Shown one piece after another: positions 1,425 through 15,080 of a stretch of 41,367 nucleotides of DNA; the first letter of the stretch is position 1, and every line of letters starts with the position of its first letter. Below the pieces are notes generated by a model that was not told the origin of the DNA, ran no database searches, and saw nothing but the letters and a program-made list of their open reading frames with translations. The position numbers were made by a program, and so were the translations under genes. Origin of the DNA: a virus; the IMG/VR virus record IMGVR_UViG_3300036768_000096, positions 1-41,367 of that record. One strand, written 5' to 3'.

Positions 1425-4400
1425 TTACGGCCCCATCTTCTCCGCGACCTTGCCCCACAGCTTGGCTTTCTTCTCCTGCTGGTAGGCGGCCTTATCGGCA
1501 AACTCATCGGCCGTTATCTGTTTCGTCTGCAGTTGCCGCTTCAGCTGCGCAATCTGCTTGTCGATCTCCATCTCCTCGGCACGGGTCTTCGCCATCAGGT
1601 TTCGACGCAGCACGTCGGCGGGGTAGGCTCCAACTTTCACGCCGACGGAGCTAGCGATGGCCATCGGCACGCTCATTTCGCGTCCGAAGGCGTCGGTGCG
1701 CCCGCTCATCGCGCCGGCTACTCCCTCGGTGGCGTAGGTGTTCGGCACGCCCAGCAGGTTCGGCATGAAGGCCTTCCACAGGTGGTCGATGATCTTCCCT
1801 GTCTGCTCCGCGCCGGTGTCGGTCTCCAGCACGATCGGCTTGCCGGTGAACGCGCTCTTGTTGAAGGCGATCTCGCCAAGGATCACCAGCGGGCCGCCCG
1901 GGTACAAGGCCGGCGGAAGCGGCAGCGCGGCATGCCCGGCGTCGAGGTCCACGACATCGCCAACAGGTATCCAGCGGCGGATGTCCAGGTACACCGGCGA
2001 TCCGTTGGCGTCGTTCCACGGCATGCGGATGAGTTTCGGCACCAATCCCCAGATCCGCCCGGCCTTCTCCTCTGGCAGCAGCTTGCGCTCATCGTCGCCT
2101 CCGCCAAGAGCACCTCCAAGCCAGTTCAGGACGCCGGCGATGGCCATGAGCTTCAGGATCTTGTGCGGCCTCTTGCCGGCCGTCTCCAGCAGCATCGGCA
2201 CGGCGCGGTACGTGAAGGCCACGAACGGCCACGCGGACGCGCGCATCGCGGCCACCCACGGCGCGTTAATCGAGTAGTCCAAAAACGACCGGCGCGCGAC
2301 CTTGCCGGCCTCGGCGTCGCTCATTCCCTGCTCCTTGGCCTTAAGCCACGCGGCCAGCCGGAAAACGTCATCCTCGGCCTGGTACAGGTCGATCAAGTTC
2401 TTGCCGTCGGTGGCCACCGCGGTGGCAGGGCGCGATGCCTTGAACGCCTCCCAGGCCTGCGGGAACCGACGATGCATCAAGTGCTGCAGCGCGGCGTACA
2501 CGCCGATCTCCTGCGGCGCGGCCTGCGCGGCGGTGCCCGCCAACTCGGCCCGCAGCGCGGCGACGATGGGCTCCATCTGCTCGTTGGCGATTTCCTGCGT
2601 CACCCAGCCGCCGATGGCGCCACCGCTGATCTGATAGCGCGACAGGATCTCGCGCGCGGCCTCGGCGTCCGGCAAACCGGCGATCGCCAGCGCGTTGCCG
2701 GCGCGGCCCAGCACGCCCGTGCCGTCACGCTGGCTCGCGCCGAGGATGATGCGTAGCGACTTCGCCACGTGCCCGGCCGACACGTCGTGCCAGTCGGCCA
2801 TCACGAAGTTGGCCATGATGTTGTTGGTATGCACGCCCGGGGACAGCGCCGTCTTGGCGGTCTTCCACATGCGCAGGATCTGGTGGTACGTCTCGCCGAG
2901 GGGCTTGAACTGGCCGTTCACCACTTGGCGCAGGTCGTTCCAGATCGGACCGGGCAGGTAGCGCCCGGCCAGCGCGCCGTACTTCTGCACGCTGGTGCCC
3001 GGGATCTTGGCGTCGGGCACGAGAACCCACTCGTCTGGCTTGAAGGAGTCCCTGTACCGCTCCGACGCCTCGACGATCTTGCCGGTAATCACCTCGCCCG
3101 GCTTCTTCGCATACCGATGCGCCAGCCACTCCAGGTAGCGCCCCACCTCTATGTCGTGGATCATGCGATGCAGCGTCTTGGCGATGGCATAGCGCGCCTC
3201 GTCGATCTCGCCCATCTTCATGCGCTCAGCCTTCGTGAAGTCGCGCCAGAGGATCACGTCGTCACCCTTGGTGTCGCGCACCTCCCAGGCGCCGGCCGAC
3301 TCCCAGTCGGCGTACTTCGCGGGCTTGACCTCGCCCACCGGCCAGTAGTGCACTTCGAGCAGCTTGCCCGGCCGGGTGTTCTCGCCCATGCCGTCCAGGC
3401 TCATCGTGCCGTCGCCGCGGGGCGCGCGGCGCTCCAGCCGCTCGAACTTCTCGCCCTTCAAGCTGGTGTCGGCCTTGCCCGCCACCAGTTTGCGCTTCCA
3501 CCATTCGGGCGCGACGTTCTGGATCTGGCGCATCGGTGCCTTCGCGACCATGCCGCGGCCCTTGTACTGGTCGCCCAGGATCGTCAGCACGCGCTCCTTG
3601 CGGGCGCGGTCGCTGGCCGTCATGTCCTGCGCGTCCAGGTGCTCGTGCTTGAAGTAGCTGCGGCGCAGATAGGCGAACCGGTGGCGCTCAAAGGCCTCGG
3701 GCTCCAGCTGACCCAGGCGAACGGCCTCCTTCGACAGCCCGTCGATCATGTCGCGCACCTGGCGCAGCACGGCGACCGACTCCTCCGGCAGCGCCTGCAT
3801 CAGTTCGTCGGCGGTACGGGTGTCCTCGCCGGTCATCCATTCGTAGGCCACGCGGCTCTCGGCCCGGGTCATGGTGGCCAGCTTCTCCAGCAGCTTGCCG
3901 GCCTGGCGCAGTTGCTCGCGCTGGCTGCCCGTCATCTGCGCGCGCTGGTCGATCACGGCCTCTGGCACGCCGTAGTCGGACACCAAGCCGGCCTTCACGC
4001 GCTCGGGCGTGATGCGGTCGATCAGGCGCGCGCCGAGGCCGTAGAGGGACGCGGCCGCGCGCTCGATGCCGGTCACGCGGGAAAACCCGCGCACAACCGC
4101 GTCGATCGGCTTCGGCGCGCGGGCAGCGTTGCGGATGATGGCCTCGGCGCGGTCGGCCGGGGTCGGCGCGGTGGCCGGCGCGGTGTTGCCGCCGGCGGCG
4201 GCGCGCGACAGCATCACCTCGGCCGGGTTCTCCTGGCGCCACTCCGCGGCCAGGCGCTCGAAGCGCGGGTAGTCCTTCTCCAGCATGTCCTCGATCGAGG
4301 CATAGCCAGCGGCCAGCGCCTGCTCCGTCAGCCACTTCTCCTGCGCGGCCAGGTCGTCGGCCAGCCGGCCGGTGGACAGCGCGGTGCCGGCCGGCGCGCG

Positions 4401-7400
4401 GCCGGGCTTGCGCGCCACGTAGGCGCGGGCGGCGCGCACGAGGTCGGCCACAAGCAGATCGGCGCGCTGCTGCTCGGTCAGGTAGCCGGCGAGCCAGTGG
4501 TCGATGAGGTTCGCGGTGCGCTCGAAGCCGCGCGCGCGCAGCGCGTCGCGAACCTTGCCCACGAGCGCGCGCCAGCCCTTCAGGCGCGCCAGGCGCGCGG
4601 CCGGAATGTCGACGATCACCTCCTCGACGGCCTCGGCCAGCGTCATCCCCTGCTTGATCAGCGGCGCTGCGGCGCGGCGCACATCCGTGCTCTGGTTGTG
4701 CAGCGCCTGCATGGCTGCATTCAGGCCGGCGCCCAGCAACCCGCGCAGGCCGGCGTGCGCGGCCTCGTGCTCGGCCAGCACGAATTCGGCGCGTGCCTCG
4801 TCGGCCAAGCCGGACGCGAACAGGTAGATCTTCCCGTCGTGCAGCGCGCCCTCCACGTCGCCCCAGGCGCCCCGGCGCATGATGATCGACTGCAGCGCGG
4901 CCGGCGCGTGCGACGGGTCCGGCAGCACGACGACGGGCGGCAGGCCCGGCAGCTTCTCGACTACGCGGTCGCGCACGGCGCGCAGCGCGGCCAAGTCCAT
5001 GCCGCCGCCGGCGCCGCGGGACAGCCTTGCGCCGTCTTTGTCCTCCGGCTTCGAGGCGCCTTCGATGGCGCGCCAGTCGCCGGGCGTGCCGCCGTTCGAC
5101 GCGACGGCCTTCTCGATCGCGCGCTCGGCGCTGCTGGCCTGCACGTCGAAGCCCAGGCCGGTGTCGATGCGCTCCACGCGCCACGTGCGTTCCTTCGAGT
5201 CCGCGGCGATCTGGGCCTCGAGGTCGGCCGCCTCGCGCAGCTTGCCGGCCAGGATCTCCGACATCGGAAACGGGGTTTCCAGACGAGGGCGCAGCGCGTC
5301 GGCGGTCGACTCGGCCTGCGCGATCTTCTCGCGCAGGCGCTCCGGCGTGCGCGCCACGTCGGCCACGGCATTGACGGCGCGCATGGCCATGCCCAGCGGG
5401 TTCTCGTCGCCGACGGAGATCAGCATCACGGGCTCCGGCGTGGCCAGTTCGACGTGCCACGTGTACGAGCTCTCGGTCTTCGTCGACACGTAGCGCACCG
5501 GGAAGCCTGACACGTCTCCGATCGTCGCCGACGGCGCCACGTTGGCGGCCAGCTTGCCGGCCTCGGCCTTGAGGGCGTCGGCCCATTCGGTGCGGTTGGT
5601 GAAGGTCTTATTCCCGGCCTTGGCCACGAAGCGGTTGCCAGACAGGTCGCGCGCCTTGCCCGCCAGCGCCTCGGCTTCGGGCAGTTTCTGGCGTAGGAAG
5701 TCCGCGGTCATCAGCGCGCGGCTGAACTCCGATCGGAAGCCCTGCCGCTGGTCCTCGTGCGCCCGGTACAACCGCTGCAGTTTCTCGGCCTCTGCCTTCA
5801 GCCCGGCCAGTTGCAGCACGCGCGGATCTTCGGCCACCAGAGCCGCGGCCATGTCGTACTGGCTCACGGAATCCAGGTCCTCGATCTCGCGCAGGTTCTC
5901 GTCGCCGGACAGCGCCTGGTCGATGAAGAACTGCTTGCGCGCCAACATGCCCCACATCGTCTCGTCGTAGCTGCCCTTGGCGGCGTAGGCGTGGATGCGC
6001 ACGACCTTGTTCTTGTTGCCCTGGCGGATGATGCGGCCCTCGCGCTGCTCGAGGTCGGCCGGGAACCACGGCGAATCCAGGTGGAACAGGTTCAGCAGGC
6101 GCTGCTGGGCGTTGACGCCCGTTCCCATGTTCTTTGACGACCCCACGAGGATGCGCACGCGGCCGGCGTTGAGGTCGCGGAACAGCTTCAGCTTGTCCGT
6201 CGACTTCTTGTAGTCGGACATGAACGCTACCTGCGAGGCCGGCACGCCGGCGTCGCGCAGCCGCTTCTCCATCCAGGCGCGCGCGCTGAATCCGCGGTTG
6301 GCGGATACGCCCTCGCCAAATCCAAGATCGGAGAACACCATCATGGTCGCGCCCTTGATCGGCTCCGGTGTATCGTCATTGACGTAGTACTCCATGTCCG
6401 CCGTCGTCTTGAACGCGGCGATCACGTCGTCGATCATGCGGTTCAGCTTGGAGTCAGGATCGTTGGGCGCCTTCGGGTTGATGAAGCGCATGTCGATCGC
6501 GGCCAGCCGGCCATCGCCGATGATCGCGATGACGGGATCCGGGTTGTTCGGCTCGTCCTTCGACGGCTTCCATGCGCGCGATGCCTCGTAGCGCGCCGCC
6601 AGCACCTTCTGGTATTCGGCGTAGGCCTTCGTCTTCGGCGTGACGATGATCCGCCGCGACCCGCCGTCGACCTTCGGGCGCGAGCTGCCCAACAGCGCAG
6701 ACAACTTGTCGCTCGTCAACACGTCAGCGAACTGACGGAACATCTGCGTGAGCTCGGCCACGTTAACGAACTTGTTGAAGCGCGTCACGGGTTCATATCG
6801 GCCGGCGGCGTTGGACTCCAGCGTGGTGCGCTCGCGACCGAACATCGCGGCCCACGAGTCGAAGTCCTCGATGCCGCGGTCGATCAGCGCCTGCCTGTCC
6901 ATGAACCTCTGCACGGTATACAGCTCGGCCAGAGTGTTTGTAACAGGCGTACCGCTCGCCATCACCAGCGAGCGGCCCGGCCTCTTCTCCTCCAGGTAGC
7001 GAGCCTTGATGTAGAGGTCGAGCGCCTGCGCGCTGCCATCCGGCTGGATTCCTTTGACCTTGCGCGCCGTGGCGAAGTCAAGCTTGCGGTAGGCGTGCGC
7101 CTCGTCCACGTAAAGGAAGTCGACGCCGAGTTCGTCGAACCGTACGTTGCGGTCCTTGCCGACCCCGGAGAGCGCGTTCTTCAGCTTCTCCTCCAGGTTC
7201 TCGATCTGCTTCTCGATCTGCTTGATCCGGGGAGACTTCTTCTTGCTGCCGCCATCCTCCTCACCCTTGGCCTCATCCAGCGAAGCGCGCAGGTAGTCCA
7301 ACTGCTCGTCGATGATCTTCGCCTTGAACGACGGGTCGATATCGAGCAGCTTGAATGCTGATTGCGTGATGATCACGCCATCCAGGTTCGACAGCGCCAC

Positions 7401-10400
7401 CCGGGCGGCCCAGCGGCGCCGGTTGTCGGTGTGGAACCCATTCTCGTCGGCCACCATCAGCCTAGCCGTCGGGTAGAGCTCCTGCCACTCGCGCGCGAAC
7501 TGCTGCAGCATGTGGTTGGGCACGACGACCATTGGCTTCTTGATCATGCCCAGGCGTTTCTGCTCCATCGCGCTGATCACCATCTGGAACGTCTTGCCGC
7601 TGCCGACGGCGTGCGCGAGGTAGGTGTTGCCAGACTGCACGATGCGCCAGGCGCCGCGCTTTACGTGGTCGTGGATTGCAAATGCCTTCGATGTGCCTGG
7701 AAGCGTCAGGTGCCGGCCGTCGAAAGACCGCGGAACGGTGGTGTTGAACTTGTCGTTGTAGATGCGCACCAGGCGGTTTGTCCGCTCGGCGTCGGACCAC
7801 ACCCACTTGCTGAACTCCTCCTTCAGCGCCTCCAGCTTGGCGTTTGCGGCCTCGGTCGCGTCGGCGTCGAACACCTGCTTGATGTCCCTGCCAGTTCGAA
7901 CGGTCTTCATGACGCTGACCGGGCGGCCGGTCAGCGCGTGCTCGAGAAGTTCGCCCGCGTGGCGCGACGAAGTGCCCCAGTCGGCGGTCGCAGCTCGGTT
8001 GCGTTCATCCACGCTTCCCATCTGCACGACCCACTGCCGCGTTGCCTCGTTGAAGCTGATGTGCGCACGAATGCCGGCGGTACGCTGCAGGAACTGCTCG
8101 TAGACGCTGCCCGGGATCCAGTTCATGCCCAGGCTGATGTCAATCTGCGCAGGGGTCTTCGGCGCCGGCTGCACGGCGCGCAGGGCATCGACGTTGCGTT
8201 CGTAGCGGCGGTCTGCCTTGGCGGCTTCCTCGGCTGCCTGCAGCTTGCGCTTGACGTTGCCCGACAAATACTGGTCCGCGGTCTCCCACTTCCCACCCTC
8301 GGGGTTCTCGTAGATGGCCGACCCCAACGCCTCGATCACGGCCTCTGGCTCCATGTCGATGCGCTCGGCGATCATGTCGATGTTGACCTCGCCGGTGTCG
8401 TTCAGCACGGACAACAGCGCGTCGGCCGGCGTGGCGATCCGCGCGCGCTCCGGCGCGCCGAGCACGCGGCTGGTCAGGAATGGCGACGGTGACGTTGCGC
8501 CCGTCTCCTCGTCGACCTTCTCCAGCGCGGCAACGAGCGTCCAGTCCGGGTCGTCGTTGAGCTTCTGCAGCAACGGGTAGACGCGGCGCTCCTCCACGTC
8601 ATCGACCTTGCGGCCGGTCGGGTTTCCGTTCTCGTCGATCTCGTCGATCTTCACGCGCACGTTACGCGCGACGCTCTGGTTCACGGCCCCGTTCTTGTCG
8701 GTGAAGGCCTTGTATGCGGCCTGCAGCGCCTTCAGGCTCGACTCCCAGTCGCCACCGTTTAGCTGGTCGTAGTGCGCCTGCTTCAACGCATCGCGCAGCG
8801 GCACGAAGTCCTTCAGCAGTTTGATATACTTCGTCGCCTTGCCGATCACGGCCTTGCCGACGCCTTCCTCGCGCTGCATAAGCACGCCGGCATCGGTGAC
8901 GTAGTAGTTCCCCTCCTTCTGCGCCTTCGGGTTGAAGTCGATCTCGCGCACGACCGCGGCCTCGGCCGCCGACCCGCGCGCCGGTCGGTACACGTCGGCC
9001 GGCATCCGCTCGACGGCCGCAGCAAACAGCGCCTCGATGTCGCCCTCGGGCGCCAGCACGGTGTACTGCGGCTCCGGGTTGTTCTGCATCTTCCCGGTGT
9101 CGCTGGGCGTGCCCAGCACCATGTCCGGGTGAGCGTGGAAATACTCGTTCACCTGGAACTCGCGCGAGCCTACCTTCATCGGCAACGACTTCGACCACGG
9201 CTGCGCGCCGGCAAACGTCTCGCCTGGTACCTTCTTGCGCAGGAACAGCACATCCGTCACCACGTCGGTGCCGGCGTTCTGCTTGAACGCGGTCTGCGGC
9301 AGGCGGATCGCGCCCACCAGACCGGCGCGCGCGGCCATGTAGGTGCGCGCCTTGTCGGTGAGCTTGTCCATGGTGTAGCGGCTGGTGACGAACATCACCA
9401 GGCCACCCGGCCGCACGCGGTCGATCGTCTTCGCAAAGAAGTAGTCGTGCAGCGCGAACGCATGCTTGGCGTACTCCGGGTCCGACAGAATCTTGGTGCC
9501 GGAGAACGGCGGGTTGCCGATCGCCAGGTCGTAGAAGTCCCGCGGAAGTTTCGTTTCCTGGTACCCCTCGACGCGGATCAGTTCGTCTGGCTGCAGCTGC
9601 GCCAGGATTCCGCCGGTGATCGAGTCGTATTCGATGCCGGTATAGGAAACGTTGGCGGCCAGCGCGTCTGGCATCAGGCCCGGGAATATGCCGATGCCGG
9701 CGCCGGGCTCTAGCACCATGCCGCCCTTGAACCCGAACCGCTCGGCCGCGGCCCACATCGCACGCACCACGCCTTTCGATGTGTAGTGCGCGTACTGAGT
9801 CGAGCGAGATGCCTCGGCCCATTCTTCTGGGGTCATCGCCTTCTTCAGGCGGTCGCGCAGTTCCAGCCAGCGCAGCGTGACCGGCTCCGGCTTGATCGTC
9901 TCCAGGTCGGCCAGTGTGATCCGATCTGGATAGCCCATCGGCTTGCCGGCGAGTCGCATCGCGTCCAACGCCGTGTAGTAGTCGGCGTCGGCGTAGTCGC
10001 CGCGGTATGTGCCGCCCTTGCGCAAGTAGTCGCGCTTGAGCGAGGCCATGGCCGCCTTGACCCGCTCGTATGCGTCCGCCAGCTTGCGCACCTTGTCCAG
10101 CTTGTCGCCGAACAAGTTGTTGGCGATCTCGCTGGCGCCCCAGCCGATGAACTTCGCCAGGACGCGCTGCTCGTCAACGGTTGCCTGCCGGCCCTCGGCC
10201 TGCAGCTTCTTCAGCAGTTCGACGGCCTCGACGTTGCGCTCGGCCTTCTTCTGCCATGACCCCTCGTAGGTGAGGTCGTCGTCGGTCAGTCGGTAGTTTC
10301 GTCCGGACTTTGGCTTGATGTCTCGTCCGGCGGGAACTGCAGCACCTCGGCGAGAGCGATTTCGCGCGCGATACTCTCGGCCGCTTTCATCCGCGCTGCG

Positions 10401-13400
10401 TTCTCCAGCAGCGGCAGGCGATCCCACCCCTCGCGCAGGCGCTGCTCCATCACCGCTGTCGTCACCTGCTCTTTGATCTGCGACTCCAGATCGCGGATTG
10501 TCGACATCAGCCGACCGGATGCCTTCAGGTCCGCGTACATCCTCGGCGCCTTGTCGCGCATCGCCGCCTCGATCGTCTGCTGCAGTTGCGTCATCATTGG
10601 CCCCGAATAGCGAGCCCTGAGCATACCCGGAAGAACCATGATCCGGTACAATGGATGTCGGAGATACTGAATTGAAACTGCCTGACAAATTCCCCGAAGG
10701 CTGCCGGTTCGTGTCGGACTTCTCCGGCGACGACTGGGTGGCCTTCCCTGACGGGCGGGTCTTCAAGCTGGACGACTCGTCCGGCGAGCTGCGCGAGGCG
10801 CGGTCGCTCCCGCCGCGAGGCGCGCCCTCCAGCGAAGCAGCCTTCCGCGAGGCAGCGGCCGCAGCTGCGGCTCGGTAGAGGTCGGACTGGGCCGCCTCGA
10901 CGGCCTGCTGCACCTGGGATCCCTTCGGCTGGCCGCGCTCCACCTCGTAGAGCTTGTGGCCCTCGTTCTGCTTGGCGGCCAGCATTTCGGGCACGTTGAT
11001 CTGGATCTCCGCGACGGAGCCGTTCGGCATCACCACGTTGATCAAGACGTCGCCGTAGCCTGACGGCAGGAAGCCGCGACGGCCGGTCACGTCGGGCGCC
11101 TGGATCTTGGCGTCGGTGCGGTCCTTCACGCGGCCTGGCATCACGTTGAACTCGCGGTAGATCTCGTCGACCACCGCCTGCGCGTCGGCGTAGCTGCTCA
11201 CGACGATGGTCGAGCGCAGCAGATCCTTCAGCGCGGTCGTGTCCATCGACCCGTCGGCCGCGCGCGGCTCCATCACCAGTTTCTCGCTCGCGCGCTTGAC
11301 GGACTTCAGCGGCGCGAGCATCTGCCCCAGCGCGCCGGTCCGCTGCGCGATGTCGATGATCTTCTGGTCGTAGGCGACCTTCTCGGCGGCCGAGCGCTCG
11401 AGCATGGGTTTGACCAGCGCCTCGGCCTGCGCGCGCTCCTCTGGAGAGATCTGCAGCGGCGGCGCTTCCTTGGCGAACTTGGCGATGTACCCGCGCACAC
11501 GGTCAAGCAGTTCCTCGCTCAGGAACTCGTCGGTGCGCGGCGGCTTGAAGTTGTGGCGCTTGGCGTCGTAGGCCTCGCCGTTGATCATCGCGGCGCGCGG
11601 GCGATCATCCCGATCCGGCTGCCCGTCGAACAACCCGCCCTGCGCCGGCTTCTCCGGCTGCGAGAACAGGTCGCCGCCGTAGCCATGGCCGGAGGCACCA
11701 CGCTCGATCGCCTGCAGCGCGGCCTTGCGGTAGGTCTCGTCGCTGACCTTGTTCCAGAGCTTCCTGTACTCCGGGTCGGCCTTCAGGCGCTGCTTCACCC
11801 ATGCGGTTGCGCGCCGGATGTCGGTGCCGACGATGGCGATCGCCTCGCTGAACATCTTCACCAGCGTCGGCATCAGGCCTGGTGTGTTCTCCGGCACCAT
11901 CGCGGCGCGCTGGTTCTTGGTCAGGATCGCGGCCAGGTCGCCGGCGGCCTCGTAGAACCGCTCGACGTGCTCGGCGCGCTTCTCGCGCAGCGCCTCGCTC
12001 TCGTTCGACACGGTGGTGCCGGAGAACTCGCGCACGGCGTCCAGCAGCTGGTCGATCGGCGCGTCGAAGCGACGGATCTCCACCGGCTCCCGGTTCATGG
12101 CACGAGCCAACCACCGGTGGTGCCCGTCCAGCACGTAGCCGTCGGACGACACCAGCACGCCGGCGGCGTCGCCCTGCAGCGAGCGAGCGCCCTCCACCTT
12201 CTCCGGAGAGAACTCGGCTTGCGTCGGCTTCAGGTCGGCCGCGGCCACCGTCTCGGTCGTGCTGCCGATGCCCATCGACTCCAGGAAGGCGTACAGCTTC
12301 GGCCGCAGCTTCAGTTTCACCTGCGGCATCTTCGCGCGCGGAATCCCTAGCGTTCCAGAAGCCGGCGGGAACTTGACCCAACCCTGACCTTTCGCCTCGT
12401 TGGCGGCTACTGCTGGCGCGGCTTCACCGCCTTCATTGCTGCGGCCAGCGCCCGGCGCAGTTTCGGGTTCGAGTCCAGGCGCTGCGCCAGCGCGCGCAGC
12501 CGCTCGATCGTCTCCACGGCTGGATTCTTTGGTAGCGCCATTTGTGGTTCCTTGCGTGGGTACATTTTTGGCTCCTTGCGTGGTGCGGCGCGCAGCGCCC
12601 ATGAGGTCGATGGCGGTCGGCGGCTTCACGTCGCCCAGCAGCGAACCCTGCGCCGGGTCGCCGGCGGCGTCGAGCGCGTCGAAGTAGGCGGTGATGAATT
12701 CGGCCACCTTGCGCGGCCGGCGCACGTTGTCCGCCAGGAAGCGGATCAACTCGCGCGTCTCGGGCGAGAACTCATCGCCCAGCAGCCCGGCCTGCGCCAG
12801 AGCGTCGTCGACCGACGTGCCCTGCTCCTTCAGGCGCGACAAGGTGTCGGCGGCGTCGACGAGGTGCGGCGTCAGGTCAGCGTCGAAAAGCCGGCCGTCG
12901 CCGATGGCGGCGCGCGCCTTGGCCACGCGCGGCGCGGCGATCAGCAGCGCCTTGCTGATGTTGCGCTGGTTGTCGTCCATTGACTCGACCAGTCGCGTCA
13001 GGATCGCCGAGTCGCCATAGGCCTTGGCCAGCACGGCGTTGCGCACGCGCGAGTAGCCGGCGGTCGACAGCCGGCCGTCGGCGTCGATCATCCCCGCCTG
13101 CTCGGTCTGCGGCAGCCGGGCGATGAAGCGGCGGATGAACTCGCGCGACCTGGAGAAGTCGCCATCGTCGGTCGGCCGCAGGTCGTCCATGGCGTCCACC
13201 CGGGCGGCGTCGGCCTTCGCCTGCTCGGCCGGCGACATCTGCGCGACGGTCGAGGCGTTGGCCTGTCGCGCGAATTCGGCCCGATCCACGGGCGTCGAGC
13301 GCACGCGCACCAGCACCGGCTGCTGCATGCCGTCGACCTGCTCCGGCGACAGGCCGAACTGATTCGCGTTCTGGCGCAGCCAGTCCTTGTAGTTCTCGGC

Positions 13401-15080
13401 CTTCTGGCCGCGCGCCTGGTATATGCGCTTGAGCGCGATCGTGCGAGCGTTGCCGGATTCCACCAGCCCGTCGTCGCCGACGATCGGCGCGCCGGTAGCG
13501 GCGTCGGCGGACAGGCCCAGGCGCGCAGGGTCCATCCGGCCGACGATGTTCTGGATCTGCAACGCGCTCGCAGCACGCTCTCGATTGCGCGGCTGCAGTT
13601 CCGGCGGGTAGTTCGGGTTTGGCCGCAGGTTCACGTCGTGCGAGGTCTGCAGGTCGTCAGCCTCGACCAGTGAGTAGCGGCCACCGAGGCGCCTGCCGTC
13701 CTCGGTGGTGAACGTGGTGTCGTTCCCGCGCACCTCACGAATGGCGGGTCTGGCCGGGTCGCCGGACCGCTGGTCCGGCTCAGGCATCAGCACTTCTTGG
13801 GCTTGGTCTTCTTCTTGGCCATTTGGCACTCCTGCTACCGCGGCCTGCGGCGCGGTTTCCGCTTCTGGCACTGCGCCAAGAATCTCTGCGGCATCGATGG
13901 ATCCGGAGGCGCCTGGAGCGGTTGCAACGCGGTCCGCGGCTTCCGGCGCCATCGGCTGGACGTCCGCAGGCGGTGTACTTGCTCCGTCCGCGCTGTCGCT
14001 TGGATTGGCCGGTTCCGGCTTGCCACCGCGCCGGTAGTCCATAACCATGCGCCCGGCCGTCATGCTGCTGCCCAAGGCGCCGCCAAGCGCCGCGCCTTCG
14101 CCAGCAGCCGAACCAACACCCTGCCAGCGGTCCCGTGTCGGGTCGACGGACTGCACGGCCTCGTTGATGGCCAGCCGGCCGAAGCCCTCCTCGATCCCTT
14201 CCTGCCGCGCCTCGCCGGTGAAGGCATGCGCAATCTCTTTCAACTTCGCGCCTGGCGGCAACTTGCCCACTAGCGCGCGCTCCATGGCCGCGCCGTGTGG
14301 AAGCATCGAAGAAAGCACCGACGCAAGACCCGCCTGTGCAGTCGCCATGAAGGCCTTGTCATTGATGAGCCGCGCCTTGGCCTCGTCCGGCCCAACCTGA
14401 TCGGCAAGCGCCTTGAACTCCGGGATCTGCTCCCAAAGCTTGTCAGGCAGTGCCATTAGTTGCTTTTGCGTTTCTGAGCCTATATCCACGCCCTGAAGCA
14501 CAGCGCCGGTGCCGACGGCGCCCGCCGTGCCGGCGCCTTCCACGGCGGCCTTACCGACGCGCGTTGCAGCAATATTCGGTGCTACGCGCTCCACGCTATT
14601 CGCCGCCGCATCCGCTACACGGCCGCCCATGCGAGTCATGCCAAGCAGGCCAAGCTGCGAAGCGAAGGCGTTTGCCAGCAGCTTCGGATCGCTCATCAGC
14701 GTGTAGGCGCTCGCCAAGGCCTCGCCTGTCTCGCGCGCAGCGGTAGCGATAGCGCCGTCACCGCCGCCAACGGCTCGCTGCGCTAAGGTGCCAACGTTGC
14801 GGATGATGTTCTGGCGCGTTTTCTCGCGCTGTTGCAGGTCCTGCGACTTTTGGTCGTCGATCGACTCGCCGAACTCGTCCAGAGCCTGGACACCGGGGCC
14901 ATACCACTGGCCTGTGATGGCGCGATCAGCAACGGCAGCCGGCAGCTTGGCAGCGGTGACCAAGCCGCCAAGCGCCGACGCGCCAAGGTCCTTCAGCCAG
15001 TCAAGCCCGGAGCGGTCATCGGTTGCTGGGGCGTCAGGGACGAAGCGGCCAGACGGGGCCGGATCGGGCACAAATGGCAT
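1425..15080 (-). CDS. Giant multidomain polyvalent virion-type protein (4,551 aa)
   Basis: One uninterrupted frame of 4,551 codons from ATG at 15080. Domains in order: helical, alanine-rich N-terminus with hydrophobic stretches (1-340); linker; DdrB/ParB-like domain (about 470-600, GNART from G543); helical region to 800; second ParB-like domain (about 905-1010, GHHRW from G986); RelA/SpoT-like nucleotidyltransferase-fold domain (about 1285-1375, KDR from K1319, EIQ from E1358); low-complexity linker (about 1400-1600); N6-adenine methyltransferase (about 1600-1960, EPGAG from E1791, NPPF from N1856); SNF2-like helicase (about 2440-3050, GSGKT with K2496, DEAH from D2659, QREGRIIRQG from Q3012); zincin peptidase (HEAAH from H3438); and a C-terminal region with hydrophobic segments near 4280-4325. 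This is the composition of polyvalent proteins of phages and conjugative elements. Bcep22-like phages carry a virion-associated protein of this size thought to aid DNA entry. Small genes are embedded in three linkers. Confidence 0.95.
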   Translation of the reverse strand: MPFVPDPAPSGRFVPDAPATDDRSGLDWLKDLGASALGGLVTAAKLPAAVADRAITGQWYGPGVQALDEFGESIDDQKSQDLQQREKTRQNIIRNVGTLAQRAVGGGDGAIATAARETGEALASAYTLMSDPKLLANAFASQLGLLGMTRMGGRVADAAANSVERVAPNIAATRVGKAAVEGAGTAGAVGTGAVLQGVDIGSETQKQLMALPDKLWEQIPEFKALADQVGPDEAKARLINDKAFMATAQAGLASVLSSMLPHGAAMERALVGKLPPGAKLKEIAHAFTGEARQEGIEEGFGRLAINEAVQSVDPTRDRWQGVGSAAGEGAALGGALGSSMTAGRMVMDYRRGGKPEPANPSDSADGASTPPADVQPMAPEAADRVATAPGASGSIDAAEILGAVPEAETAPQAAVAGVPNGQEEDQAQEVLMPEPDQRSGDPARPAIREVRGNDTTFTTEDGRRLGGRYSLVEADDLQTSHDVNLRPNPNYPPELQPRNRERAASALQIQNIVGRMDPARLGLSADAATGAPIVGDDGLVESGNARTIALKRIYQARGQKAENYKDWLRQNANQFGLSPEQVDGMQQPVLVRVRSTPVDRAEFARQANASTVAQMSPAEQAKADAARVDAMDDLRPTDDGDFSRSREFIRRFIARLPQTEQAGMIDADGRLSTAGYSRVRNAVLAKAYGDSAILTRLVESMDDNQRNISKALLIAAPRVAKARAAIGDGRLFDADLTPHLVDAADTLSRLKEQGTSVDDALAQAGLLGDEFSPETRELIRFLADNVRRPRKVAEFITAYFDALDAAGDPAQGSLLGDVKPPTAIDLMGAARRTTQGAKNVPTQGTTNGATKESSRGDDRAAARAGAAPGLEPETAPGAGRSNEGGEAAPAVAANEAKGQGWVKFPPASGTLGIPRAKMPQVKLKLRPKLYAFLESMGIGSTTETVAAADLKPTQAEFSPEKVEGARSLQGDAAGVLVSSDGYVLDGHHRWLARAMNREPVEIRRFDAPIDQLLDAVREFSGTTVSNESEALREKRAEHVERFYEAAGDLAAILTKNQRAAMVPENTPGLMPTLVKMFSEAIAIVGTDIRRATAWVKQRLKADPEYRKLWNKVSDETYRKAALQAIERGASGHGYGGDLFSQPEKPAQGGLFDGQPDRDDRPRAAMINGEAYDAKRHNFKPPRTDEFLSEELLDRVRGYIAKFAKEAPPLQISPEERAQAEALVKPMLERSAAEKVAYDQKIIDIAQRTGALGQMLAPLKSVKRASEKLVMEPRAADGSMDTTALKDLLRSTIVVSSYADAQAVVDEIYREFNVMPGRVKDRTDAKIQAPDVTGRRGFLPSGYGDVLINVVMPNGSVAEIQINVPEMLAAKQNEGHKLYEVERGQPKGSQVQQAVEAAQSDLYRAAAAAAASRKAASLEGAPRGGSDRASRSSPDESSSLKTRPSGKATQSSPEKSDTNRQPSGNLSGSFNSVSPTSIVPDHGSSGYAQGSLFGANDDATAADDRGGDARQGAEDVRGPEGIRSADVDNPRSGVADQRAGDDSGDGAAPARGVGSPAAAGERSADESGREYRARNRSRRGAAVPAGRDIKPKSGRNYRLTDDDLTYEGSWQKKAERNVEAVELLKKLQAEGRQATVDEQRVLAKFIGWGASEIANNLFGDKLDKVRKLADAYERVKAAMASLKRDYLRKGGTYRGDYADADYYTALDAMRLAGKPMGYPDRITLADLETIKPEPVTLRWLELRDRLKKAMTPEEWAEASRSTQYAHYTSKGVVRAMWAAAERFGFKGGMVLEPGAGIGIFPGLMPDALAANVSYTGIEYDSITGGILAQLQPDELIRVEGYQETKLPRDFYDLAIGNPPFSGTKILSDPEYAKHAFALHDYFFAKTIDRVRPGGLVMFVTSRYTMDKLTDKARTYMAARAGLVGAIRLPQTAFKQNAGTDVVTDVLFLRKKVPGETFAGAQPWSKSLPMKVGSREFQVNEYFHAHPDMVLGTPSDTGKMQNNPEPQYTVLAPEGDIEALFAAAVERMPADVYRPARGSAAEAAVVREIDFNPKAQKEGNYYVTDAGVLMQREEGVGKAVIGKATKYIKLLKDFVPLRDALKQAHYDQLNGGDWESSLKALQAAYKAFTDKNGAVNQSVARNVRVKIDEIDENGNPTGRKVDDVEERRVYPLLQKLNDDPDWTLVAALEKVDEETGATSPSPFLTSRVLGAPERARIATPADALLSVLNDTGEVNIDMIAERIDMEPEAVIEALGSAIYENPEGGKWETADQYLSGNVKRKLQAAEEAAKADRRYERNVDALRAVQPAPKTPAQIDISLGMNWIPGSVYEQFLQRTAGIRAHISFNEATRQWVVQMGSVDERNRAATADWGTSSRHAGELLEHALTGRPVSVMKTVRTGRDIKQVFDADATEAANAKLEALKEEFSKWVWSDAERTNRLVRIYNDKFNTTVPRSFDGRHLTLPGTSKAFAIHDHVKRGAWRIVQSGNTYLAHAVGSGKTFQMVISAMEQKRLGMIKKPMVVVPNHMLQQFAREWQELYPTARLMVADENGFHTDNRRRWAARVALSNLDGVIITQSAFKLLDIDPSFKAKIIDEQLDYLRASLDEAKGEEDGGSKKKSPRIKQIEKQIENLEEKLKNALSGVGKDRNVRFDELGVDFLYVDEAHAYRKLDFATARKVKGIQPDGSAQALDLYIKARYLEEKRPGRSLVMASGTPVTNTLAELYTVQRFMDRQALIDRGIEDFDSWAAMFGRERTTLESNAAGRYEPVTRFNKFVNVAELTQMFRQFADVLTSDKLSALLGSSRPKVDGGSRRIIVTPKTKAYAEYQKVLAARYEASRAWKPSKDEPNNPDPVIAIIGDGRLAAIDMRFINPKAPNDPDSKLNRMIDDVIAAFKTTADMEYYVNDDTPEPIKGATMMVFSDLGFGEGVSANRGFSARAWMEKRLRDAGVPASQVAFMSDYKKSTDKLKLFRDLNAGRVRILVGSSKNMGTGVNAQQRLLNLFHLDSPWFPADLEQREGRIIRQGNKNKVVRIHAYAAKGSYDETMWGMLARKQFFIDQALSGDENLREIEDLDSVSQYDMAAALVAEDPRVLQLAGLKAEAEKLQRLYRAHEDQRQGFRSEFSRALMTADFLRQKLPEAEALAGKARDLSGNRFVAKAGNKTFTNRTEWADALKAEAGKLAANVAPSATIGDVSGFPVRYVSTKTESSYTWHVELATPEPVMLISVGDENPLGMAMRAVNAVADVARTPERLREKIAQAESTADALRPRLETPFPMSEILAGKLREAADLEAQIAADSKERTWRVERIDTGLGFDVQASSAERAIEKAVASNGGTPGDWRAIEGASKPEDKDGARLSRGAGGGMDLAALRAVRDRVVEKLPGLPPVVVLPDPSHAPAALQSIIMRRGAWGDVEGALHDGKIYLFASGLADEARAEFVLAEHEAAHAGLRGLLGAGLNAAMQALHNQSTDVRRAAAPLIKQGMTLAEAVEEVIVDIPAARLARLKGWRALVGKVRDALRARGFERTANLIDHWLAGYLTEQQRADLLVADLVRAARAYVARKPGRAPAGTALSTGRLADDLAAQEKWLTEQALAAGYASIEDMLEKDYPRFERLAAEWRQENPAEVMLSRAAAGGNTAPATAPTPADRAEAIIRNAARAPKPIDAVVRGFSRVTGIERAAASLYGLGARLIDRITPERVKAGLVSDYGVPEAVIDQRAQMTGSQREQLRQAGKLLEKLATMTRAESRVAYEWMTGEDTRTADELMQALPEESVAVLRQVRDMIDGLSKEAVRLGQLEPEAFERHRFAYLRRSYFKHEHLDAQDMTASDRARKERVLTILGDQYKGRGMVAKAPMRQIQNVAPEWWKRKLVAGKADTSLKGEKFERLERRAPRGDGTMSLDGMGENTRPGKLLEVHYWPVGEVKPAKYADWESAGAWEVRDTKGDDVILWRDFTKAERMKMGEIDEARYAIAKTLHRMIHDIEVGRYLEWLAHRYAKKPGEVITGKIVEASERYRDSFKPDEWVLVPDAKIPGTSVQKYGALAGRYLPGPIWNDLRQVVNGQFKPLGETYHQILRMWKTAKTALSPGVHTNNIMANFVMADWHDVSAGHVAKSLRIILGASQRDGTGVLGRAGNALAIAGLPDAEAAREILSRYQISGGAIGGWVTQEIANEQMEPIVAALRAELAGTAAQAAPQEIGVYAALQHLMHRRFPQAWEAFKASRPATAVATDGKNLIDLYQAEDDVFRLAAWLKAKEQGMSDAEAGKVARRSFLDYSINAPWVAAMRASAWPFVAFTYRAVPMLLETAGKRPHKILKLMAIAGVLNWLGGALGGGDDERKLLPEEKAGRIWGLVPKLIRMPWNDANGSPVYLDIRRWIPVGDVVDLDAGHAALPLPPALYPGGPLVILGEIAFNKSAFTGKPIVLETDTGAEQTGKIIDHLWKAFMPNLLGVPNTYATEGVAGAMSGRTDAFGREMSVPMAIASSVGVKVGAYPADVLRRNLMAKTRAEEMEIDKQIAQLKRQLQTKQITADEFADKAAYQQEKKAKLWGKVAEKMGP
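10286..10594 (-). CDS. Embedded 102-aa gene inside a linker of the giant gene
   Basis: Same strand as the giant gene but another frame. The likely product starts at the ATG at 10594 (MTQLQQTIEAAMRDKAPRMY) and ends in the acidic tail LQFPPDETSSQSPDETTD. It is a regular amphipathic helical protein and resembles small phage and mobile-element proteins that precede adenine methyltransferase-helicase genes. By hand count about 81% of its codons end in G or C, the host-like pattern, whereas the giant frame over the same bases shows only about 50%. Upstream ATG or GTG starts up to 10651 are possible and no candidate has a strong ribosome site, so expression is uncertain. Function unknown. Confidence 0.55.
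   Translation of the reverse strand: MTQLQQTIEAAMRDKAPRMYADLKASGRLMSTIRDLESQIKEQVTTAVMEQRLREGWDRLPLLENAARMKAAESIAREIALAEVLQFPPDETSSQSPDETTD
10672..10878 (+). CDS. Embedded antisense 68-aa gene inside the giant gene
   Basis: A plus-strand frame in the same linker, head to head with the embedded gene at 10286-10594. The best start is a TTG at 10672 with GGAG at 10660-10663, spacing 8; an in-frame ATG lies at 10651. The product begins MKLPDKFPEGCRFVSDFSG, has an aromatic-rich beta-like stretch (DDWVAFPDGRVFKL), and ends in an alanine-rich tail. The first bases are AT-richer than the surroundings, as at real gene starts. The third codon positions of this frame coincide with those of the giant frame, so part of its coding look could be borrowed. 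Function unknown. Confidence 0.4.
   Translation: MKLPDKFPEGCRFVSDFSGDDWVAFPDGRVFKLDDSSGELREARSLPPRGAPSSEAAFREAAAAAAAR
12407..12565 (-). CDS. Embedded 52-aa (or 44-aa) gene inside a second giant-gene linker
   Basis: Begins at ATG 12565 with AAGGAG a few bases upstream, or at the in-frame ATG 12541 with AAGGA seven bases upstream, and stops at TAG 12409-12407. From the second start the product reads MALPKNPAVETIERLRALAQ and continues as a basic amphipathic helix to KPRQQ. About 84% of codons end in G or C; the giant frame over the same bases has about 48%. The two starts lie in a tandem near-duplication of the ribosome site. It falls in the linker between the DdrB-like region and the second ParB-like domain. 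Function unknown, but the ribosome sites are among the best in the window. Confidence 0.6.
   Translation of the reverse strand: MYPRKEPQMALPKNPAVETIERLRALAQRLDSNPKLRRALAAAMKAVKPRQQ
13787..13822 (-). CDS. Embedded 11-codon lysine-rich leader-like gene
   Basis: ATG at 13822 preceded by AGGAG at 13833-13829 (spacing 6) opens MAKKKTKPKKC followed by TGA. All eleven codons end in G or C, while the giant frame over the same bases is rich in A/T-ending codons. The stop overlaps a giant-frame ATG (Met432, base 13787) as TGATG, the coupling arrangement used throughout this genome, so translation of this short gene could restart at Met432 and give a second, N-terminally shorter product. The shortness limits confidence. 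Confidence 0.4.
   Translation of the reverse strand: MAKKKTKPKKC

Follow-up and report, generated by a model that had tools for sequence, protein, structure and literature searches.

Genes nested within other genes are already known as a phenomenon, including in phages, where Rz1 lies in Rz, and such nested spanin genes have been described for the Bcep22-like phage JC1 (PMC9144972). Gene iddB of phage P1 is likewise annotated within ddrB (L002:2875-3273). Polyvalent proteins with a DdrB-like ParB domain (Iyer et al., 2017; PMC5512222) are characterized as late phage proteins in which DdrB-ParB is joined with methylase-/helicase-type domains; a term search of that paper found no mention of genes nested in linkers, and no report of genes nested in polyvalent-protein linkers was found in the open-access literature. 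In the intragenic antitoxins of Rpn nucleases (PMC10327210), initiation inside the gene yields a small product that restrains the larger one encoded there.

The candidate gene analysed here resembles Rz1-in-Rz in that a small gene lies wholly within another on the same strand, in a different frame and with its own start. Rz1, however, belongs to the lysis cassette, is a lipoprotein and is encoded within a small gene, whereas the present product is basic, is encoded in a linker of a 4,500-aa polyvalent protein, has no lipoprotein signal by eye and is unrelated to Rz1 in sequence. It differs also from P1 iddB, which runs antisense to ddrB and occupies a different part of that gene, the present gene being on the same strand as its host; a profile of its family gave no match in P1. 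RpnS corresponds to the C-terminal domain of the complete protein and is thus in frame, whereas the present gene is in a different frame and restraint is only proposed for it. The small-protein family appears to be undescribed.

The window, which is the whole stretch of viral DNA analysed (41,367 nucleotides), carries a giant polyvalent (DarB/DdrB-like) virion-type gene of 13.7 kb at 1425..15080 (-), encoding 4551 aa and containing the nested gene. Its product combines a DdrB-like ParB domain (PF18763) with further domains in one phage protein and belongs with the polyvalent proteins of Iyer et al. (2017). The DdrB-ParB domain (E=1.2e-34, residues 461-594) lies upstream of the nested gene at 13299..13700 (-), and the conserved DdrB region of the giant gene reaches to about 12569. 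Downstream of the nested gene, at 11985..12380 (-), a sequence-profile search gave no match; the AlphaFold model of this segment (pLDDT 92) matched ParB-N, sulfiredoxin and Noc folds (Foldseek best E 0.007, prob 1.0), and nearly all of the top matches were ParB-N, Srx or Noc. A second ParB/sulfiredoxin-fold domain is thereby predicted and confirmed only by fold. The arrangement, with PF18763 on one side and the ParB/Srx fold on the other, agrees with the original prediction of a linker between a DdrB-like and a second ParB-like part. Matches of the giant protein to Eco57I-type methylase and SNF2/helicase domains were weak and under their cut-offs. The structural genes of the window (portal, major head, internal virion and tail-fibre proteins) adjoin the giant gene on the same strand, and late expression therefore fits.

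The nested ORF was found where it had been claimed, at 12407-12565 (-), in frame +1 of the giant gene and on the same strand, with an ATG at 12565 giving 52 aa and another at 12541 giving 44 aa. Both of the Shine-Dalgarno sites that had been called good could be located, AAGGAG at 12572..12577 (-) for the 52-codon form and AAGGAA at 12548..12553 (-), 6 nt 5' of the ATG, for the 44-codon form. The proportion of codons ending in G or C, originally given as about 84% for the small frame and about 48% for the giant frame, was measured over the same DNA as 0.84 and 0.48. With regard to the product, originally given as 52 or 44 residues, the shorter alternative stood and the longer did not: the 44-aa form (12407..12541 (-), 44 codons plus stop, MALPKNPAVETIERLRALAQRLDSNPKLRRALAAAMKAVKPRQQ), marked by a homologous ATG, codon phase and GC, is supported as the likely version because homologues begin at the second ATG, and the 52-aa option (12407..12565 (-)), with its upstream ATG and Shine-Dalgarno, is without homology support as its start is not kept among relatives. 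The start region also contains a 24-nt unit in two diverged copies, 19/24 identical and each with a Shine-Dalgarno and ATG; this tandem duplication (12536..12583 (-)), noticed in the window only, doubles the Shine-Dalgarno and start codon.

A homology search with the 44-residue protein had been suggested as a check, and homologues in the same place and frame were identified in IMG/VR phages and in prophages of Burkholderiales, 23 distinct sequences in all. Carriers include prophages of Hydrogenophaga intermedia S1 and Giesbergeria anulus ATCC 35958 (L104, L106). The first viral scan, with the single window sequence, gave no match and alignment queries were required; close relatives were reached by querying IMG/VR and Burkholderiales genomes with an alignment of the DdrB region, and include Hydrogenophaga, Giesbergeria, Limnohabitans, Limnobacter and MAGs. 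Searching with the small protein alone recovered nine loci, all in frame +1 after DdrB, and its profile recovered 21 non-identical loci, always in frame +1 directly after the DdrB domain. The typical member reads MA(T)LPKTPSGETLEKxRKLxxxxxSNPKMRRAIAAAIKAMGLPxP, and the ATG and Shine-Dalgarno core are present in all 21 scored members. When about 800 whole bacterial genomes were searched by profile, two members were added (L156 and L157), in frame +1 within DdrB genes and also with an SD-like motif upstream; two other matches from whole genomes (L154, L155) are ordinary longer ORFs lacking a DdrB match and were judged to be chance. No free-standing copy of the small gene was found in the roughly 800 bacterial genomes, 50,697 phages and 72,556 plasmids, and tblastn with the small protein against these phages and plasmids, with the BLAST low-complexity filter on, gave no match even at loose E-values.

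DdrB and the small gene are retained together while the downstream domains change (L021, L022, L100; L101 vs L102). The DdrB-ParB genes that hold the two members from whole genomes (L156, L157) are short, at 467 and 442 aa (L158:5688-7091 and L159:6558-7886), and in their two bacterial genomes they end a run of virion-protein and lysis/ejection-type genes; each resembles a minimal form of the giant protein. The DdrB half beside the nested gene is shortened in L156/L158, where the gene and its upstream SD-like motif nonetheless persist. The close relatives L013 and L017 are without the nested gene, with no decayed remnant detectable by profile, and a giant protein that carries DdrB can therefore do without it. 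The linker of L017 is short as a whole, with normal giant-frame GC3 (0.93), which indicates that the long low-GC3 linker accompanies the nested gene.

The pattern of substitution among the relatives shows which frame is constrained. Over the same bases the small frame has a mean amino acid identity of 45%, as against 30% for the giant frame, and 204 of the 210 member pairs favour the small frame (pair counts uncorrected for phylogeny). In frame-blind DNA alignments of three separate pairs, uncorrected for shared ancestry, differences at giant positions 1/2/3 number 53/26/15 over the ORF as against 131/76/314 in the adjacent DdrB (p=1.7e-14). Substitutions thus fall at giant position 3 throughout DdrB and shift to giant position 1, the third position of the small frame, precisely across the small ORF; the nested frame is under purifying selection, with the variation at its third position. 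The pair formed by the window and L099 gave a weaker phase signal (22/21/20), so that the strength of the phase test derives from the relatives. Rather than keeping the giant frame and breaking the small one, the relatives do the opposite: the small frame is kept and the giant frame drifts, yet is open in every member. The joint chance of this openness, given the small proteins and redrawn codons, is about 10^-16 (uncorrected for ancestry), which supports true dual coding over a split giant gene.

From the conserved +1 coding, the start signals, the maintenance of both frames and the constant location behind the DdrB domain, it is concluded that the nested ORF is very probably a real, unannotated and separately initiated protein-coding gene, as had been claimed. 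The openness of frame +1 was dropped as evidence: it survives in 97% of synonymous recodings of the giant protein, and the giant gene contains 35 frame-+1 runs that are 44 codons or longer, and since openness is expected by chance, ORF length and openness count for little. This same expectation favours reading the ORF as an artefact of composition, that is, a GC-rich disordered linker encoding a single protein and open in +1 by accident, as does a look-alike in BcepIL02 (L005:3702-3863), an ORF 5' of the second ParB domain, which failed the phase test of conservation, was not found in CSP3 and JC1 and serves as a negative control. The reversal of GC by codon position is, however, beyond chance. 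None of 2000 synonymous recodings reached the low giant-frame GC3 seen over the ORF (z=-8.9), and every one of the 21 members has a giant GC3 lower than expected, with a strong deficit (z of -2.7 or beyond) in 20 of them. Set against the amino acid conservation in +1, the switch in substitution phase and the universal ATG and Shine-Dalgarno, and with normal linker GC3 in the close relative that lacks the gene (L017), a compositional accident is scarcely credible.

Two other accounts would leave the conservation in place without a separate gene. Shine-Dalgarno-like sequences are able to stimulate frameshifting, as in prfB, and the small frame, which is always +1, might serve as an alternative C-terminal tail of the giant protein, to which ribosomes would gain access through programmed +1 frameshifting close to the internal Shine-Dalgarno; the result would be a short DdrB-terminated product. 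This is very improbable: all 21 members have an ATG at the homologous start, the residues preceding it are unconserved in the small frame, and in most members in-frame stops occur only 2-13 codons 5' of the ATG, leaving scarcely any space for a frameshift; in L021 the stop is two codons before the ATG, between the SD and the ATG. It could also be that DNA or RNA is conserved rather than protein, in the form of a structured RNA, a recombination site or a regulatory element. The downstream domains swap directly after the gene (L099/L100, L101/L102), which places a recombination junction nearby, but the variation clusters at small-frame third positions, a hallmark of selection on protein, and Rfam gave no match even at E=1, making a non-coding element extremely unlikely.

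The protein of 44 aa (4.9 kDa) has a net charge of +7 and a pI of 11.7, and its AlphaFold model (pLDDT 83, pTM 0.45) consists of two helices at residues 7-24 and 26-38, in keeping with the basic helical protein that was foreseen. Basic charge is common to 21/21 members (pI 8.2-11.9). No fold match to the model was found in the PDB, and no match holding across members in Pfam, PHROGs, NCBIfam, PADLOC or PDB sequences; overall, no known family, fold or catalytic motif was found for it. A hit to phrog_26876 (50 aa; E=0.019) was obtained with the 52-aa form only and was rejected, as none of 12 members of the nested-protein family matches it.

For expression of the separately initiated gene, it is proposed that ribosomes would initiate independently on the giant late mRNA, at its internal Shine-Dalgarno and ATG, yielding from the +1 frame the strongly basic protein of 44 residues with two short helices, and that other ribosomes would read through to make the giant polyvalent protein. 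The small protein would then be translated late, alongside the giant one. The overlap appears to sit in a low-constraint inter-domain linker, for which reason the giant frame would tolerate it. As to role, the gene is always accompanied by DdrB, even where its host gene is short, and this suggests a joint function with the DdrB protein; on this co-location we tentatively propose an accessory partner of the ejected DdrB/ParB protein, which might act as a chaperone, as a packaging factor or as a restraint keeping DdrB/ParB inactive until ejection. A real small protein functionally unrelated to DdrB, such as a late DNA- or RNA-binding regulator or a packaged basic protein using the locus for co-expression, has a considerable probability, if short of an even one. 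The basic charge in all members and the small size suit nucleic-acid binding equally with protein binding; against this stand the persistence of the gene with DdrB through domain swaps and in the short DdrB-ParB genes, and the finding of no copy elsewhere in the genomes, phages and plasmids searched. An unrelated nucleic-acid-binding or other role is regarded as somewhat likelier than partnership with DdrB/ParB.

The origin of the overlap is a separate matter, and one compatible with a real gene. Separate genes flanking a small intergenic gene could have become fused through it, making the linker a by-product of fusion and not of the overprinting of an older linker. DdrB and the second ParB domain do occur in different genes in other phages, and the giant-frame linker is of low complexity and drifting, with its 30% identity; on the other side, in no relative does the small gene stand outside an overlap, and all of them keep the giant frame open. 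We consider such a fusion a plausible but doubtful origin for the nested gene.

The pattern noted at 10.3-10.9 kb, which the present ORF was said to repeat, was also found to include a conserved nested ORF. It lies at 10286-10651 (-) in the window, in frame +1, encodes 103-121 aa (ATG-started form 10286-10597) and has conserved out-of-frame counterparts in ten relatives or more, which include L011, L014, L018, L019, L090, L099, L103, L116, L134 and, weakly, L017. Its resemblance to TnpV is weak (PF14198 E=0.0018, under the cut-off of that profile). A distantly related ORF (E=1.6e-6) of 107 aa, unannotated and with a GGAGG Shine-Dalgarno, is nested in a comparable location in BcepIL02 (L005:5496-5816) and is intact in five named Bcep22-like phages, these being BcepIL02 and DC1, BcepMigl, CSP3 and JC1 (L165-L168). 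In most of the five the phase signal matches, leaning to giant position 1, and it is clearest in JC1 (23/13/15 vs 7/8/29 just after). Given this homologue in Bcep22-like phages, the general pattern is testable in cultured phages.

Outside the low-GC3 linkers the giant-frame GC3 of the window averages about 0.9, and its drop is restricted to three linkers, those of the nested ORF and of the 10.3-10.9 kb region and, more weakly, the one preceding DdrB. No convincing nested ORF was found before DdrB in the window itself. A wider and rather unlikely reading is that the inter-domain linkers of giant polyvalent phage genes, whether they follow DdrB or precede it or the methylase, are regular homes of unrelated nested genes and that at least the present one in addition makes a dedicated partner or restraint of the ejected DdrB/ParB protein. 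Annotation pipelines usually suppress ORFs within long genes, and a 13-kb gene therefore conceals those nested in it. One giant gene here holds at least two nested genes, each with its own conserved family, which implies that the gene content of phages with DarB/DdrB-type genes is under-counted, including that of cultured Bcep22-like phages. Phenotypes of deletions in these anti-restriction/ejection genes may in part stem from nested proteins. The linkers also offer a natural experiment in which a low-constraint protein segment accommodates a second gene.

Further candidates were noticed in linkers of other phages. A third nested candidate, lysine/arginine-rich and located before DdrB (L020:3534-3674, MSKTKRQQ...AWKPLG), is seemingly common to L011, L019, L020 and L103. 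Distant DdrB genes have a different nested ORF (MPDGRTVEQAADDYTKREYRLGYPYASE...) with AAGGAG sites upstream of DdrB (L124:4666-4887, L125:4663-4887 and L133:4666-4887). Out-of-frame linker ORFs of 90-117 codons were also seen at a flip in GC phase in Itty13 (L006:5823-6143), vB_PaeM_USP_18 (L008:5907-6257) and phage 8P (L009:6766-7035).
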